64,000 nt of DNA from Mesorhizobium sp. AR02 (GTDB lineage Bacteria; Pseudomonadota; Alphaproteobacteria; Rhizobiales; Rhizobiaceae), in assembly GCF_024746835.1 (NCBI RefSeq), contig NZ_CP080531.1, positions 1,178,001 to 1,242,000 on the forward strand. Reading direction: 5' to 3'. Shown one piece after another: positions 1 through 5,233 of this stretch. The notes under the pieces are model-generated. The model ran no database searches and had not been told where the DNA came from. It was given only the letters and a program-made list of their open reading frames with translations. Positions within the stretch are counted from its first letter, which is position 1. The number at the start of each line of letters is the position of its first letter. The translations under genes were made by a program, and so were the position numbers.

Positions 1-1086
1 GGGGGCGGCGCGCACCAGCGTCGCATGGCCGCCGCCATGTTTGCGCAACAGCCCGCGCAGCAAAGCAGCCTCCGGGTCGCCCCCTTCCATGCGCAACCAC
101 ACCAGCCCGCCCTGCCAGTCGTAGAAGGCACTGACGGCGGCCTGCATGCGCAAGGTCAGAAGCATCTGATGCGCCTGAGAGGGTGCCATCGACACGCGCC
201 AGACCGGTTTCTCGGTGCCGTCGGCGAACGGCCTGATATCGCGCACGTCGCGCCAGATCAGTTGCGAGGCCTCGCCGGCAATCTCCTCCAGCGGCCCGGC
301 CTTGCCGAGCAGCGTCTTCAGCGCGGCGATGCGGTAGGCAACGGACGGACCAAAACCTTCGACACGCAGCAGCGTGGCGGCTTCACTGCCGAGCACGCCA
401 TCAGCGACGCGCGCGGCAATGCGCTCCGGCAGATGGGCAGCACTCGACACTTCCGCGCTGGAGCCGAGCGCCAAGGCCATGGCACTTGCAGCGACATCGT
501 CGAGCAGTCCACGGATGGCGAGCGTGACTTCAGTCTCGGCGGCGGGCAGCACCTTGAAGGTGACGTCAGTGAAAACGGCCAATGTGCCCCAGCTGTTTGC
601 CATCAGCTTCGACATGTCATAGCCAGTGACGTTCTTGACCACGCGGCCACCTGACTTGAAGGCCTCGCCGCGGCCGGACACGACATTGATGCCGAGGATA
701 TGATCGCGCGCCGCACCCGCCTTCAGCCGGCGCGGACCGGAGAGGTTCGCGGCGAGCACGCCGCCGATGGTGCCTTTACCGGGCTCGCCACCGAACAGCG
801 GGCCGTAGTCCATCGGCTCGAAGGCCAGTTGCTGGCCGTTCTCCGCCAGCAGCGTCTCGATCTCGGCCAGTGGCGTGCCAGCCTTTGCCGAAAGCACCAG
901 TTCGGAGGGTTCGTAAAGCGTGACGCCGGTGAGTTTCGACAAATCAAGCGTGTGCTCCGTCTGCAGCGGACGGCCAACGCCACGCTTGGAGCCGTGACCA
1001 AGGATTTCGATCGGCGTCTCTTCCACCACCGCCCACGTAACGGAGGACAGGACTTCGTCTGACGTGGTCGGGGTGAACGTCGTCAA
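1..1086 (-). CDS. glcE: Glycolate oxidase subunit GlcE, FAD-binding (partial, runs off left edge)
   Basis: The reverse strand reads as an FAD_binding_4-type protein whose C-terminus lies beyond base 1. Visible signs are a glycine-rich FAD-binding stretch (GGVLAANLSGPRRL) followed by AARDHILG and by GRVVKNVTGYDMSKL, both typical of GlcE. GlcE works with GlcD and the iron-sulfur subunit GlcF to oxidise glycolate to glyoxylate and pass electrons to the respiratory chain. I place the start at a TTG at 1086, which overlaps the TGA of the upstream ASCH-like gene by three bases (TTGA). This suggests translational coupling in a glcD-(insert)-ASCH-glcE order. glcF would be expected just outside the window. 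The family call is secure; the start codon is inferred. Confidence 0.9.
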   Translation of the reverse strand, partial: MTTFTPTTSDEVLSSVTWAVVEETPIEILGHGSKRGVGRPLQTEHTLDLSKLTGVTLYEPSELVLSAKAGTPLAEIETLLAENGQQLAFEPMDYGPLFGGEPGKGTIGGVLAANLSGPRRLKAGAARDHILGINVVSGRGEAFKSGGRVVKNVTGYDMSKLMANSWGTLAVFTDVTFKVLPAAETEVTLAIRGLLDDVAASAMALALGSSAEVSSAAHLPERIAARVADGVLGSEAATLLRVEGFGPSVAYRIAALKTLLGKAGPLEEIAGEASQLIWRDVRDIRPFADGTEKPVWRVSMAPSQAHQMLLTLRMQAAVSAFYDWQGGLVWLRMEGGDPEAALLRGLLRKHGGGHATLVRAAP

Positions 1087-1679
1087 AGCCTGTGCTCCCT
1101 GAGTTTTTCGAGCACGGCTTCGCCTCTCGGCGACAGCCGGTAACCGATCTCGAGGCTCTCGGTGAGGCCGAGTTCCTTGAGCTTGCGGACATCCTGCTTG
1201 AACTTCAGCGTTTCAACATTGGCCATCGCAGCCAGATCAGCCGCACGTATTTCCGGATGGGCACCAATCGTGCGCAGGATCGACGAGAAGTAGCCGGGCG
1301 CGGTCTTGTCCCACCGGGCAAACCTTGCGGTCAGGACATGCCAATCCGTATCGGAAAGCGTGGCGTCGCCACGCAAGGCGACGCGTTCGTCGGGCTCGAT
1401 GCCTTTGAGTTCGATGCGATAGACTGGTGTGCCGTCATCGGCTCCAAGCATCTCCCGAAGGGCTCCGAGTGTCGGAAAGCCAGCCGCGCTCGCGTCGCTC
1501 TCGGTCAATGCGGACATGTCCACGATCGCGATGCCGCCGATCTGCACGACACCCGACGCCGTCCTCTCCCGCCCACCAGCCTTGACCGTCGGCCGCTTCC
1601 AGCGGCGAAAGGCGAGCGTCACTTCCTTGCGCGCGATCTTGTCCAGCGAGGATTGTTTGAACAGCAACTCAGACCCCAC
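1083..1679 (-). CDS. ASCH/PUA-like domain protein within the glc operon
   Basis: This 198-residue protein has an N-terminal segment (LFKQSSLDKIARKEVTLAFRR, then a glycine-rich turn and VVQIGGIAIVD) that resembles ASCH/PUA-like folds, which often bind RNA. The C-terminal third (from about residue 125) looks helical and winged-helix-like (IRAADLAAMANVETLKF, LGLTESLEIGYRLSPRG). The start is GTG at 1679 with no strong ribosome binding site; an internal TTG or CTG about five codons later is possible. The gene lies between glcD and glcE on the same strand and overlaps the glcE start. Its role in glycolate metabolism is unknown. The ASCH assignment comes from pattern resemblance and is moderate. Confidence 0.6.
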   Translation of the reverse strand: MGSELLFKQSSLDKIARKEVTLAFRRWKRPTVKAGGRERTASGVVQIGGIAIVDMSALTESDASAAGFPTLGALREMLGADDGTPVYRIELKGIEPDERVALRGDATLSDTDWHVLTARFARWDKTAPGYFSSILRTIGAHPEIRAADLAAMANVETLKFKQDVRKLKELGLTESLEIGYRLSPRGEAVLEKLREHRL

Positions 1680-1702
1680 TGGCGCTAAGGGCTTCAGGAC
1701 CT

Positions 1703-1768
1703 GGGTTCCTCGCCCCCGCGAAGCGGGGGAGAGGTGGCTCGGGCGAAGCCCGAGACGGAGCGGGGGCC
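1703..1768. repeat. Left 66-bp inverted repeat flanking the DUF559 gene
   Basis: This element matches the reverse complement of 2203-2268 at 64 of 66 positions. It holds two small hairpins, each with a GAA loop: a CCCCCGC/GCGGGGG stem (1713-1729) and a CTCGGGC/GCCCGAG stem (1738-1754), joined by a short linker. The structure is like a REP/BIME double hairpin. It ends one base before the DUF559 stop codon (1770-1772). Confidence 0.9.
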
Positions 1769-1769
1769 A

Positions 1770-2285
1770 TCATAGAGCGCCACCTCCGAACTTCTTGGCT
1801 GCGAAAACGAACCTCAGATCTGTGGTGACCACGTCTTCTGCCAATCGTCCCTCAAGTGCCGCAAGAATGGTTTCGCAGACACTCCGGGGGCTCCTGAGAA
1901 CATCGACGTTCCAGAAGCGCAGCACTGAAAACCCCTCGCCGCGCATGAACTCATCGCGTCGCCTGTCATAGGAGCTCACGGCGTGCTGACTTCCATCCAG
2001 TTCGACGACCAGCTTTTCGCTGCGACAGGCAAAGTCTGCGAAATACGAGCCAATCGGCATTTGCCGAACGAATTTGTAGCCGCCCAGCCTTTTGGCCTTC
2101 AGCTCACTCCAGAGGGTTGCCTCAGCCTGATTGTCCCCGAGGCGAAGTACGCGAGCGCGGGCGATCTTTTCGGGCGAGCGGCGGCTTGGCACGTCGGCCG
2201 CAGGCCCCCTCTCCGTCTCGGGCTTCGCCCGAGCCACCTCTCCCCCGCTTTGCGGGGGCGAGGAACCCCCGTTCTGATAAGCCAT
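1770..2285 (-). CDS. DUF559 (Vsr/restriction-endonuclease-like) protein between inverted repeats
   Basis: From about residue 48 onward this 171-residue protein is a DUF559 domain: AEATLWSELKAKRLGGYKF, then FVRQMPIGSYFADFAC, the LVVELDGSQH core, a YDRRRDEF helix and VLRFWNVDVL. The family belongs to the PD-(D/E)xK nuclease superfamily related to Vsr. The acidic residues in ADFAC and ELDGSQH and the Q/H after them fit a nuclease active site. The first 45 or so residues are low complexity because they are encoded by the right inverted repeat, so true translation could begin later. The ATG at 2283-2285 is three bases after the glcD stop, which places the gene as an insert in the glycolate operon. 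Activity is unproven. Confidence 0.85.
   Translation of the reverse strand: MAYQNGGSSPPQSGGEVARAKPETERGPAADVPSRRSPEKIARARVLRLGDNQAEATLWSELKAKRLGGYKFVRQMPIGSYFADFACRSEKLVVELDGSQHAVSSYDRRRDEFMRGEGFSVLRFWNVDVLRSPRSVCETILAALEGRLAEDVVTTDLRFVFAAKKFGGGAL
2203..2268. repeat. Right 66-bp inverted repeat overlapping the DUF559 5' end
   Basis: This is the inverted partner of 1703-1768, with 64 of 66 positions identical. It carries the same two hairpins with CCCCCGC and CTCGGGC arms. It is translated as part of the DUF559 reading frame (residues about 6-28), where it gives a Pro/Gly/Glu-rich leader. Confidence 0.9.
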
Positions 2286-2288
2286 CCC

Positions 2289-3785
2289 TCAAAACCTCGG
2301 AATGTCGGGAAACGCCACCTGCCCCCGGTGCACGTGCATGCGCCCAAGCTCCACGCAGCGGCGCAGCTGCGGGAACACCTTTCCCGGGTTGAGCAGGTGG
2401 TTGGGATCGAAGGCGCATTTGACCCGCATCTGCTGGTCGAGATCGACCTGATTGAACATTTCCGGCATCAGGTCGCGCTTCTCGACCCCAACCCCGTGTT
2501 CGCCTGTCAGCACGCCGCCGACCTTGACGCAGAGCCGCAAAATGTCGGCGCCAAAACTTTCGGCCTTGTCGAGCTCGCCCGGCACATTGGCATCATAGAG
2601 GATCAGCGGGTGCAGATTGCCGTCGCCGGCGTGAAAGACATTGGCGACGCCGAGCCCGTATTTCTCCGACAACTCGCGCATGCCGGCGAGCACCCGCGGC
2701 AATTCCTTGCGCGGGATGGTTCCGTCCATGCAGTAATAATCGGGCGAGATACGACCGACGGCGGGAAACGCCGCCTTGCGCCCGGCCCAGAAGGTCAGCC
2801 GCTCTAGCTCGGACTGCGAGATGCGGCAGGTGGTCGAGCCGTTGCGGATGGCGATCGCCTCGACCGCGGTGATGAGATGATCGACCTCGACGCTCGGCCC
2901 GTCGAGTTCGACGATCAGCAAAGCCTCGACGTCCAGGGGATAGCCGGCGTGGACAAAATCCTCCGCCGCGTGGATCGCCGGCCGGTCCATCATTTCCATG
3001 CCGCCTGGGATGATGCCGGCGCCGATGATGTCGGCGACACACTGGCCGCCCTGCTCGCTGGTCGGAAAGCCGATCAGCAGAGCACGCGCCGTCTCCGGCT
3101 TCTTCAGGATGCGGACCGTGACCTCGGTGACGACGCCGAGCAGGCCTTCGGAACCAGTCATGACGCCGAGCAGGTCGTAGCCTTCGGCATCGAGATGGCT
3201 GCCGCCGAGCCGCACCACCTCGCCATTCATCAGCACCATCTCGATGCCGAGCACATTGTTGGCGGTGAGGCCGTATTTCAGGCAGTGCACGCCGCCGGAG
3301 TTTTCCGCCACGTTGCCGCCGATCGAGCAGGCAATCTGGGAGGATGGATCGGGGGCGTAATAAAAACCCTCCTGTTCGACGGCGGTGGTGATGCCGAGAT
3401 TGGTGACGCCCGGCTGGGCGACGACGATACGATTGGGGAAATCGATCGTGAGAATGCGGTTGAAGCGGCTCATCACCAGCAGAACCGCGTCCTCGAGCGG
3501 CAGCGCGCCGCCCGATAGCGAGGTGCCGGAACCGCGCGGCACGACGCGGATGTTGCGGTCGTTGCAGTATTTCAGCACGCGGGAGACCTGCGCCACGGTT
3601 TCGGGCAACACGACGACCAGCGGCAATTGCCGATAGGCGGTCAGCCCATCGCTCTCGAAGGCGCGCATCTGATTGGTCGCGTCGACCACGCCCTCGCCCG
3701 GTACGATGATGCGCATGTCGGCGACAATCTCGTCACGCCGGCGCATCGTGGCGTCGTCTGGTTTCGGCATGGCCAGGCCGGACAT
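2289..3785 (-). CDS. glcD: Glycolate oxidase subunit GlcD (FAD-linked)
   Basis: This 498-residue protein is full length for GlcD. The FAD_binding_4 domain spans roughly residues 50-200 (VVPRGSGTSLSGGALP, then CSIGGNVAENSGG). The FAD-oxidase C-terminal domain ends with the family motif GEHGVGVEKRDLMP and the tail DPNHLLNPGKVFP. It is the catalytic flavoprotein subunit of glycolate dehydrogenase (glycolate to glyoxylate). The frame stays open upstream, but MSGLAMPKPDD at 3785 is preferred because GTGAGG lies just before it and because homologous proteins start there. A TTTGACCAGT-like operator candidate lies about 20 bases upstream. A D-lactate dehydrogenase activity is the main alternative, but glcE downstream supports glycolate oxidase. 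Confidence 0.92.
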   Translation of the reverse strand: MSGLAMPKPDDATMRRRDEIVADMRIIVPGEGVVDATNQMRAFESDGLTAYRQLPLVVVLPETVAQVSRVLKYCNDRNIRVVPRGSGTSLSGGALPLEDAVLLVMSRFNRILTIDFPNRIVVAQPGVTNLGITTAVEQEGFYYAPDPSSQIACSIGGNVAENSGGVHCLKYGLTANNVLGIEMVLMNGEVVRLGGSHLDAEGYDLLGVMTGSEGLLGVVTEVTVRILKKPETARALLIGFPTSEQGGQCVADIIGAGIIPGGMEMMDRPAIHAAEDFVHAGYPLDVEALLIVELDGPSVEVDHLITAVEAIAIRNGSTTCRISQSELERLTFWAGRKAAFPAVGRISPDYYCMDGTIPRKELPRVLAGMRELSEKYGLGVANVFHAGDGNLHPLILYDANVPGELDKAESFGADILRLCVKVGGVLTGEHGVGVEKRDLMPEMFNQVDLDQQMRVKCAFDPNHLLNPGKVFPQLRRCVELGRMHVHRGQVAFPDIPRF

Positions 3786-3805
3786 CAGCAGCCTCACTTT
3801 GCTTG

Positions 3806-3815
3806 ACTGGTCAAA
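3806..3815. promoter_or_regulatory. Candidate GntR (FadR-type) operator upstream of glcD
   Basis: The 10-mer ACTGGTCAAA lies 20-30 bases before the glcD start. Its reverse complement, TTTGACCAGT, recurs exactly at 5381-5390 upstream of the GntR regulator. TGGTC/GACCA half-sites are common in operators of FadR/LldR-type regulators. Binding is inferred. Confidence 0.5.
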
Positions 3816-3910
3816 ATCTTTTACCAGCGAAGCGCGCCAGTTGCAAATGCTGCGGTGGCGGGAGGCTCCCGCGTCAAGCCGAAACAAGCTTCCGCAGCGG
3901 CAATCTGCCG

Positions 3911-5233
3911 CTATTCCCCCGGGTGCTTCGCCGGCTCGGAATGCATCCGGCGCACACGGCGCACGCCCCACCAGACCAGCAGGATGGCGACCGGCACCGA
4001 AGCGGCGGTGACCATCTCGGGCGCGAAAGCATGCCCGAAGATCGAGGCTCCCTTGGCGACATAACCGATGAGGCCGACGACGTAGTAGGAGACGGCGGCG
4101 ACCGAGAGGCCCTCGACGGTCTGCTGCAGGCGCAGTTGCAGGCGGGCGCGGTTGTTCATCGAGGCGAGCAAGTCACGGTTCTGCTTCTCGACCTCGACAT
4201 CGACCCAGGTGCGCAGCAGTGTCGTGGCGCGGGTCAGTTTGCGCGACAGATTGGCCTGACGTTCCTCGACCGAGCGGCAGGTGCGCATGGCCGGGGCGAC
4301 ACGACGCTGCAAAAAACCGCCCCAAGTGTCGTAGCCGGGCACGGCCTCTTCCTCGAGCGCTTCCAGCCGCTCGACGACGATGCCGTCATAGGCACGGCTG
4401 GCGCCGAAGCGGTAGAGGCTGGAAGCAGCGTCGGCTTCCAGTTCGGCGGCGAGCTCGGTCAGGTCGGCCAGCAGCGTCTGGCTGTCACGGGTCTCGGCGA
4501 CCTTCATTTCCCGCGTGGTCTGGGCCAGCCTGTCCTCGATGCGGCGGGCGCGGCCGGACAAGGTCAGGGCCAGCGGCAGGCCAAGCATGGCCAGCGTGCG
4601 GTAGGTTTCGATGTCGATCAGCCGCTGCGACAGCGCCCCGGTGCGCGCCGGCGTCAGGCCGCGATCGAGCACCAGTATGCGGGTCATGCCGTCGCCGTCC
4701 TGGCGAAAATCAGTGACGATGGCCGCATTGCCGCGCTCGACCAGCGAGTAGCACAGGCTGGTCGGGTCGAAGGCCGCGATCAGCCGCTCGCTCGCCTGTG
4801 TCCATTTGCGGATTTCGAGTCGGATGCCGGAGATGACGGTGCCCGGCGGCGAAAAGCCGTTGCCGAACGGCATATCCTCCTGCGTCCTGCCGCTTTCGGA
4901 AAGCGGCCCTTCCCACAGATAGGTCGAGAATTCCGTATGCCGCTCCCAGCGCAGCGAGCCCTTGCCCCATTTCATGGCATGATGGCGGGCCTGGCGATCG
5001 GGTGCGGCGATACCGAGACGCCGCGACAGTTCGGAGAGCACGGCGTGGTCGACGCCGGAGCCGCCTTCGGTCATGAAGGCGAGTTGCACCAGGACGCGCG
5101 GCTTTTCGATCAGCGGATGCGGCCTGGCATGGACCTCGCCCAGCGCGCCGGGCCGGCCCTCATGCGCGGGAAACCCCATGACGCTGCCCTTGGCGCGCGG
5201 CTGGAACTCGAGATTGGACGGGTCGTCTGACAC
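3911..5233 (-). CDS. DUF3422 family membrane-anchored protein
   Basis: This 440-residue protein carries the hallmark RWERHTEFSTYLWEG near residue 95 and ends with two hydrophobic segments (VSYYVVGLIGYVAKGA and VPVAILLVWWGVRRV), as in DUF3422 (COG4949) predicted membrane-anchored proteins. A long helical middle part contains probable coiled-coil stretches. The start is GTG at 5233 (VSDDPSNLEF), preceded by GGGGGA; the longer open frame runs back into the regulatory region of the divergent gntR. Function is unknown for the family. It lies between glcD and the regulator and may or may not share their control. Confidence 0.85.
   Translation of the reverse strand: MSDDPSNLEFQPRAKGSVMGFPAHEGRPGALGEVHARPHPLIEKPRVLVQLAFMTEGGSGVDHAVLSELSRRLGIAAPDRQARHHAMKWGKGSLRWERHTEFSTYLWEGPLSESGRTQEDMPFGNGFSPPGTVISGIRLEIRKWTQASERLIAAFDPTSLCYSLVERGNAAIVTDFRQDGDGMTRILVLDRGLTPARTGALSQRLIDIETYRTLAMLGLPLALTLSGRARRIEDRLAQTTREMKVAETRDSQTLLADLTELAAELEADAASSLYRFGASRAYDGIVVERLEALEEEAVPGYDTWGGFLQRRVAPAMRTCRSVEERQANLSRKLTRATTLLRTWVDVEVEKQNRDLLASMNNRARLQLRLQQTVEGLSVAAVSYYVVGLIGYVAKGASIFGHAFAPEMVTAASVPVAILLVWWGVRRVRRMHSEPAKHPGE

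Follow-up and report, generated by a model that had tools for sequence, protein, structure and literature searches.

This locus raises the question of how a single nuclease gene came to lie between two nearly identical inverted repeats in the middle of an operon, and of whether the product of such a gene could be what moves the segment that these repeats enclose. In the following, the window is the whole 64-kb stretch of DNA that was analysed, and the unit is the nuclease gene together with its two flanking repeats, its arms.

One gene between two predicted triplex motifs

A sequence-only reading had described the unit as a DUF559 gene between near-perfect inverted repeats, and this description held up in detail. 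When 2203-2268 is reverse-complemented, 64 of its 66 letters match 1703-1768, and the gene in between (1770..2285, minus strand, 171 aa), encoding a YcjD/Vsr-like PD-(D/E)XK nuclease, matches PF04480 with 119.2 bits at a cut-off of 20.6. In a repeat search of the window the arms reach 1694-1768 and 2203-2277 (75 nt, 93% inverted match), the longest inverted pair within the window's first 12 kb. In gene orientation, 2203..2277 (minus strand) is the 5' arm and 1694..1768 (plus strand) is its inverted copy, the 3' arm. The stop codon lies 1 nt from one arm, as had been noted. At the other end the first codons had been placed inside the repeat; the ATG (2285-2283) in fact lies just outside that arm, and the codons that follow do run through it.

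Each arm had been taken to consist of two hairpins. These are present, and the arm holds more than that. In the 5' arm, an outer hairpin (CCCCCGC..GCGGGGG) and the linker GAGGTGG are followed by an inner hairpin (CTCGGGC..GCCCGAG) and by a mirror-image third strand on the inner side, GGAGAGGGGG. By reading, the stem strand GGGGGAGAGG mirrors the inner segment GGAGAGGGGG without a mismatch in the 5' arm and with one differing letter in the 3' arm. Because of this mirror relation, both arms are recognised as intrastrand triplex motifs (TMs), at 2205-2263 on the minus strand in the 5' arm and at 1708-1766 on the plus strand in the 3' arm, by a motif finder that asks for an 8-nt all-purine stem, a hairpin and a mirror third strand, at most one mismatch being allowed in each. 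These were the only two motifs that the finder saw in the 64-kb window. A hairpin stem and a mirror-image purine third strand are present in both arms, and folding into a triplex is predicted from this layout.

As a control, 300 random 315-nt intervals of the window were examined, and in none of them was a flanking inverted repeat of at least 36 bits found (highest score 35.6). The unit has terminal inverted repeats around a gene, as an insertion sequence would; no Pfam transposase match was found in it, and DUF559 is its sole gene.

Regarding the neighbours, the unit had been placed between glcD and an ASCH-like gene. Upstream there is indeed a glcD-type FAD-linked oxidase gene (2289..3971, minus strand, PF02913 and PF01565); the name 'ASCH-like' for the downstream operon gene (1083..1679, minus strand) was not upheld, with neither a Pfam nor an NCBIfam match. 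The open frame of this downstream gene starts here at an upstream GTG, and the start seen in relatives with an empty site, ATG CTG TT., is not kept in the window genome. The gene is present in 7 of 61 genomes of the genus, in one of them as a short fragment. Two short leftovers separate the unit from its neighbours: 2278..2288, between the glcD stop and the 5' arm, which contains the ATG used by DUF559, and 1680..1693, between the 3' arm and the downstream gene.

The unit as an insertion

An interruption of the glc operon implies that relatives should have an empty site, and this was found: in G061, G078 and G079 glcD is directly followed by the downstream gene. The unit is complete at this site in the window genome and in G021, and in G014 one arm is left without the gene, together with a different repeat pair. 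In G078, a related unit with a DUF559 protein 63% identical was placed, by reading, between the downstream gene and the gene after it; the two insertions, at the glc site and at this second site, lie one gene apart in the same operon. Two Deinococcus plasmids (L296, L297), from two species, carry related units at different places in one hpa operon, with 79% identity over 421 nt, and in D. proteolyticus the hpa site of NW-56 is uninterrupted. The unit is an insertion between neighbouring genes.

A gene-less pair of the window repeat family, which we will refer to as the d-repeat, lies between two genes in the window genome and in G011. From a comparison of 18 loci, 7 of which were uninformative (other sequence or no right flank), the pair is absent in six relatives, with a gap of 18-45 nt between the two genes. 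Apparent remnants were seen in G019 and G003, and another repeat family is found instead in G015.

The junctions were also searched for a target-site duplication. Positions 2278..2288 bear a weak resemblance to the beginning of the downstream gene and are possibly an old target duplication; 165 of 5000 shuffles score as high as the window genome does, and for the counterpart in G021 the score was reached by 758 of 5000 shuffles. The G021 and G014 counterparts of 1680..1693 resemble the 3' end of glcD (169 and 69 of 5000 shuffles, respectively), and the segment of the window itself has no such resemblance (2621 of 5000). A duplication is suggestive in G014 and G021, not in the window genome; none is clear at the glc site, none was seen by eye in the Deinococcus units, and we do not claim one. 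As a separate observation, about 400 nt of unrelated sequence lie between glcD and the downstream gene in G005 (L155), and this junction seems to receive inserts often.

Gene-less copies in the genome and the genus

That the repeat would be dispersed was borne out. It occurs at no fewer than 67 places, in 39 clusters on one contig of the unit's own genome, a count that is a lower bound (left arm as query, 76 candidates of which 40 were scored), and one cluster, that of the window, has a DUF559 gene. Two or more copies are found in 27 clusters, namely the window unit, 25 inverted pairs and one group of three. The spacing between the window arms is 424 nt and the gaps in the other multi-copy clusters are 3-109 nt. 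By eye, the inverted pairs can be sorted into groups whose spacers are alike, which is what copying of units would produce.

Four DUF559 genes were found in this genome. Three have inverted arms, each of a different sequence, and at the fourth an inverted pair is confined to the 5' side. In the genus, the median number of d-repeats per genome was 19.5 in the 8 genomes with a d-type gene against 2.0 in the 32 without one (p 0.002). The repeat is also abundant in some genomes without a d-type gene (26 copies in G016, 26 in G034 and 21 in G031). A strict pairing of repeat and gene in the genus was considered and not retained; the pairing is partial only, with many orphan repeats.

At L048 (C2:4718297), L050 (C2:4803212), L016 (near C2:5011317) and L056 (C2:5319824) the d-arms are cut or bordered by a recurring junction, ..atgtgtgcattccgtag / ctacggaatgcacacat.., as though the outer hairpin were a target for another element. 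A common insert of about 38 nt, ..ccggggcgagccacgggtctcgcccgtccttcgga.., lies between the outer hairpin and the rest of the arm at L047 (near C2:4622780) and L058 (near C2:5415725).

Triplex motifs beside DUF559 genes

In a sample from the genus and the order (89 loci and 4 of the own genome, mostly picked by score from a longer match list, and omitting some loci near contig ends as well as most of other families), an inverted-repeat pair of at least 36 bits encloses the gene at 69 of 95 distinct DUF559 loci (97 rows minus 2 duplicates, L090 repeating L065), against 0 of 300 control intervals. By eye, eight or more repeat families share one design: an outer hairpin with a CTCCC..GGGAG core, then a linker such as GGTGG and, further inwards and often after a second hairpin, a stretch rich in G, for example GGATGAGGGG. 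The second stem strand of every family mirrors this inner stretch exactly or nearly so, which is the layout of an intrastrand triplex.

A phylum-level search gave 108 genomes with a match, from which 27 new best-scoring loci and the E. coli locus L157 were examined. Over 123 loci, a motif was found within 250 nt of the DUF559 domain in 118, on both sides in 68, and motif density was 0.91 per 150 nt beside the gene versus 0.012-0.058 beyond 300 nt. At four of the five motif-less loci (L064, L081, L149, L167), inverted repeats scoring at least 36 bits are nevertheless present. The all-G repeats of cyanobacteria (L298, L299, L301) were missed because the finder accepts only purine stems that contain an A.

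Similar values were obtained in public genomes. Among the best 80 of 575 confirmed and named DUF559 loci, all collected via one conserved peptide pattern, 76 had a motif no more than 250 nt away, 61 of them on either side of the domain and 15 on a single side, and 52 had inverted repeats of at least 36 bits; two of the four loci without a motif, L229 and L231, have strong inverted repeats. The density was 1.18 motifs per 150 nt beside the gene versus 0.007-0.047 beyond 300 nt. Going by their titles, these 80 loci come from about nine phylum-level groups, with Pseudomonadota, Desulfobacterota-type, Nitrospirota, Chloroflexota, Planctomycetota, Melainabacteria/Gastranaerophilales, Kapabacteria, Rokuibacteriota and Methylomirabilis among the names; some of the labels may be wrong because many of the assemblies are MAGs. 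The total of 80 includes loci labelled Legionella and Neisseria gonorrhoeae, which were kept out of the folded alignment. Motifs were found in 7 of 160 shuffled 310-nt flanks versus 135 of 160 observed ones, and in the motif-neighbourhood control 0 of 1000 intervals were positive. Plasmids show the arrangement as well: seven of ten plasmid loci have a motif within 250 nt, namely those of Sinorhizobium, Azospirillum and Deinococcus and one of four in cyanobacteria, the other three of which carry G-only repeats that are invisible to the finder.

The Vsr family (PF03852) served as a comparison. At the best loci of 299 Pseudomonadota genomes, 1 of 30 had a motif nearby and 0 of 30 had flanking inverted repeats; these positions are approximate, one domain position being assumed for all 30 loci and three loci being short. 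The arms of one DUF559 locus are more alike than the arms of different loci (0 of 5000 permutations). Co-divergence of protein and arms across phyla was weak (rho 0.17, 2 of 2000 permutations) and is not put forward, and the orientation of the motif relative to the gene varies between lineages. A chance juxtaposition of a nuclease gene with two copies of an abundant repeat could draw on the abundance of this repeat in its own genome; the arrangement recurs across phyla, however, and with 0 of 300 and 0 of 1000 control intervals positive we regard this explanation as practically negligible.

Some loci depart from the simple unit. L065 (1507-1806 and 2592-2891) and L097 (1507-1806 and 2582-2881) are tandem double units, in which two successive DUF559 genes each have their own inverted arms. 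At L292, on pSymB of S. meliloti, the gene lies between inverted arms of 114 nt that are 96% alike (1852-1965 and 2428-2541), each of them longer than one motif.

Sorted by site, the 95 DUF559 genes from the genus and the order form 22 groups, many of which are common to several species; the gene therefore seems to be mostly vertically inherited. One group of 20 (L001 with L073-L079, L082, L083, L089, L093, L095, L096, L098, L100, L105, L108, L109 and L119), found in many species, has no flanking inverted repeats of 36 bits and is possibly a domesticated copy.

Co-occurrence across genomes and in E. coli

To describe co-occurrence at the level of whole genomes, a strict motif pattern was used, which misses several repeat families, that of the window included. 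Among 299 Pseudomonadota genomes, a strong DUF559 match (E up to 1e-10) was present in 44 of the 53 with at least three pattern matches versus 36 of the 246 others (odds ratio 28, p 7e-22). Counts were corrected for kinship to the genus level only, where they are 25 of 32 versus 23 of 121 with genus lists compiled by hand. The relation has exceptions on both sides. Fewer than three pattern matches were found in 36 of the 80 genomes with strong DUF559. Conversely, a strong DUF559 match is missing from 9 of the 53 pattern-rich genomes and from 4 of the 38 that have ten or more matches, two of these four being assemblies 69 and 87% complete. A reversed control pattern gave none in the genome rows of the scan. 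In the same test Vsr reached an odds ratio of 3.1 and Y1 transposases one of 0.7 (27 of 53 motif-rich genomes versus 147 of 246 others).

The values for Y1 transposases bear on the possibility that these are ordinary REPs, mobilised by a RAYT (Y1 HUH) transposase, which would follow the same logic with palindromes in inverted pairs. Against it, PF01797 has no match in the own genome (G000) and is absent from 7 of the 8 other genus members sampled, G349 having two, and GTAG on either strand occurs in 18 of 138 arms and, by reading, in neither window arm. As no Y1 transposase was found in the own genome, this explanation is very improbable, unless a highly diverged enzyme of this kind exists.

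A related explanation would make DUF559 a passenger that was repeatedly caught between triplex pairs moved by another enzyme. It would agree with the 38 of 39 d-repeat clusters of the own genome that have no DUF559 gene and with the orphan repeats in genomes without a matching gene. However, a passenger would hardly be the same nuclease family in about nine phylum-level groups, inverted arms flank 0 of 30 genes of the sister family Vsr, and Y1 transposases are neither found in the own genome nor associated with motif-rich genomes. We thus consider a passenger role improbable.

In the case of E. coli, K-12 has a DUF559 gene, ycjD. By reading, a Box C element lies about 165 nt past the 3' end of ycjD and a degenerate one overlaps that end; the former, whose loop is 5 nt long, was also found by the motif finder, and a search of the ycjD region with a fixed Box C pattern that has a 4-nt loop gave 0 matches. 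The gene is present in 3365 of 5426 complete E. coli genomes. From 60 rows drawn evenly out of 5420 records, one plasmid row was left out and 59 chromosomes remained. BLAST with a Box C-bearing query gave 16-32 places (median 23) in the 37 chromosomes with ycjD and 4-21 (median 6) in the 22 without it, numbers that include the query locus itself and a comparison that follows lineages, so that the strains are not independent. Seven chromosomes without ycjD, two of them labelled O157:H7, had 14-17 places and three more had 11, 17 and 21, which indicates that Box C repeats can occur without the gene. The available text of Holder et al. 2015 (PMC4666352) gives 29 TM motifs for strain 55989 and one for IHE3034, and ycjD is described, in the accessible part of PMC12817139, as conserved in phylogroups A, B1 and C and as occupying the place of eefRABCD in other strains. 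PF04480 was unmatched in the E. coli of the control set, possibly a strain without ycjD.

The DUF559 protein

Four residues of the window protein, E94, D96, H100 and D106, show no variation in two alignments that include it, one of 16 and one of 40 sequences. In six of seven comparisons dN/dS was 0.025-0.104, with one undefined; dS was saturated in most of them and unsaturated solely for G021 (0.104). From these values the gene appears to be under purifying selection. An AlphaFold2 model has a mean pLDDT of 77, with values above 90 over most of residues 51-140. Its best PDB match is 3hrl, a DUF559 relative by sequence, followed by 3r3p_B, the catalytic domain of I-Bth0305I (E 5.6e-4, TM-score 0.76 by target); 1vsr (Vsr) is at rank 9 (E 0.06), with mitoribosomal chains ranking between 3r3p and 1vsr. 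The modelled fold is Vsr-like, as in the EDxHD homing endonucleases.

According to the accessible parts of earlier papers, YcjD was linked to Vsr in 2005 (PMC1189080) and one DUF559 gene was assigned to the EDxHD homing family (PMC9403480). In Caulobacter, the DNA damage response of a methyltransferase mutant depends on the DUF559 protein VsrA, according to the available text of PMC12907096; at least one member of the family therefore seems to damage DNA in the cell. A role as a defence-system nuclease was considered and set aside, with PADLOC giving best E values of just 0.013 and 0.023.

The protein also brings up a further explanation, namely that DUF559 is a host nuclease for the maintenance or repair of triplex-forming repeats, or is regulated by them, and that the repeats spread otherwise. 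Several observations would fit: DUF559 sites are often common to species and the gene shows purifying selection, the predicted fold is related to Vsr, VsrA is discussed as a mismatch-repair nuclease in the accessible part of PMC12907096, and 15 of the best 80 loci have a motif on one side only. A maintenance nuclease would not, however, account for a whole unit that is present or absent between adjacent genes, nor for related units that occupy two sites in the same operon, as seen in two lineages; motifs lie on both sides at 61 of the best 80 loci, the arms of one locus match each other, and the repeats are scarce where the DUF559 family is absent. We therefore rate this explanation as rather unlikely.

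A proposed mechanism

Our preferred reading is that the window holds one gene-bearing copy of a small mobile element and that DUF559 mobilises the segments bounded by triplex motifs, which we consider probable. The idea of a small mobile cassette came from the sequence-only reading. Insertion, dispersal and paired gene-less copies support it, and movement by the unit's own enzyme is the part that we infer. The association of DUF559 with triplex motifs, the insertion, the gene-less pairs with their insertion polymorphism and the genome-level co-occurrence are observations, and the neighbourhood and co-occurrence facts stand whichever mechanism holds. The mobilising role of DUF559, its action on a folded motif and the chemistry would belong to the following model. 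DUF559, a Vsr-like nuclease, would recognise the folded motif, a hairpin with its mirror-image third strand, and would nick or cut the DNA there, and repair or replication might then copy the motif-bounded segment to a new place. The enzyme would seldom act on its own gene, in cis; short motif pairs without a gene would be its more frequent targets, in trans, and these would become the dispersed repeats (the Box C/PIT/TM repeats in other bacteria).

Most relatives examined adjoin such repeats, so that the DUF559 family may spread triplex repeats more generally. With somewhat less confidence, we lean towards the broader reading that DUF559 proteins are the missing mobilising enzymes of triplex-forming repeats throughout bacteria, Box C/PIT/TM and relatives, with DUF559 lineages keeping their own repeat families; this would be a new class of transposable element, with a Vsr-like nuclease as its enzyme and an end that folds into a triplex. 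According to the available text of PMC4666352, one form of TM has 3610 occurrences in 262 proteobacterial genomes, and remnants of mobility genes around TM sites were never found by its authors. In the literature searched, which held little subscription material and cannot prove absence, no published link of DUF559 to triplex, palindromic or inverted repeats was found. DUF559, a domain of unknown function, gains a candidate function, and the origin of the repeats becomes testable in E. coli K-12, where ycjD and Box C are both present.

Comparison with known systems

Insertion sequences and MITEs combine a gene between terminal inverted repeats with short gene-less derivatives and insertion polymorphism. 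DUF559 units resemble them in their terminal inverted repeats, gene-less short copies and insertion polymorphism. Unlike insertion sequences, they have no known transposase class and no clear target duplication, and their gene sites are mostly common to species.

In RAYT systems a mostly vertical enzyme gene is accompanied by many non-autonomous repeats, and the DUF559 pattern resembles this. The RAYT-like logic that had been proposed fits, with few gene copies, many gene-less pairs and gene sites that are often common to species. The likeness to REP/REPIN-RAYT systems, as given in the available text of Di Nocera et al. 2013 (PMC3733652), is that of an enzyme gene flanked by palindromes together with dispersed non-autonomous inverted pairs; the enzyme here, in contrast, is a Vsr-like nuclease and not a Y1 HUH transposase, and unlike a REP the window repeat is a triplex motif without the GTAG tag. 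The same source describes CGTC-tagged REPs with a stem of 8-9 bp whose first pairs are A/T. Membership in this group was rejected: by reading, the stems of the window are G/C only, and the described stem was not found by eye. The letters CGTC occur in 71 of 138 arms. The comparison suggests a second, independent way to run a REP-like repeat system.

With I-Bth0305I and the EDxHD homing endonucleases, which spread their own reading frames according to the accessible part of PMC3943268, the DUF559 proteins share a predicted fold. Unlike them, the DUF559 unit is bounded by inverted triplex motifs and has gene-less copies, and no intron or intein was seen.

A close likeness exists to the Box C/PIT/TM class. 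The repeats had been called REP-like palindromes, a name we would replace, as their letters point to triplex motifs of this class and not to classical REPs. TM_ECO, in the available text of PMC4666352, has a C-rich stem, a G-rich stem and a mirror-image G-rich third strand, with some inverted pairs and variability between strains, all of which are shared here; by eye, the motifs of L212, L220, L241 and L250 fit its pattern. The window arms do not match TM_ECO in its strict form, CCCTCNCCC N3-6 GGGNGAGGG N3 GGGNGAGGG, since their second loop of about 20 nt holds an extra hairpin and falls outside the strict 3-nt loop. That text reports no mobility gene near the TM_ECO sites, whereas here a candidate gene was found.
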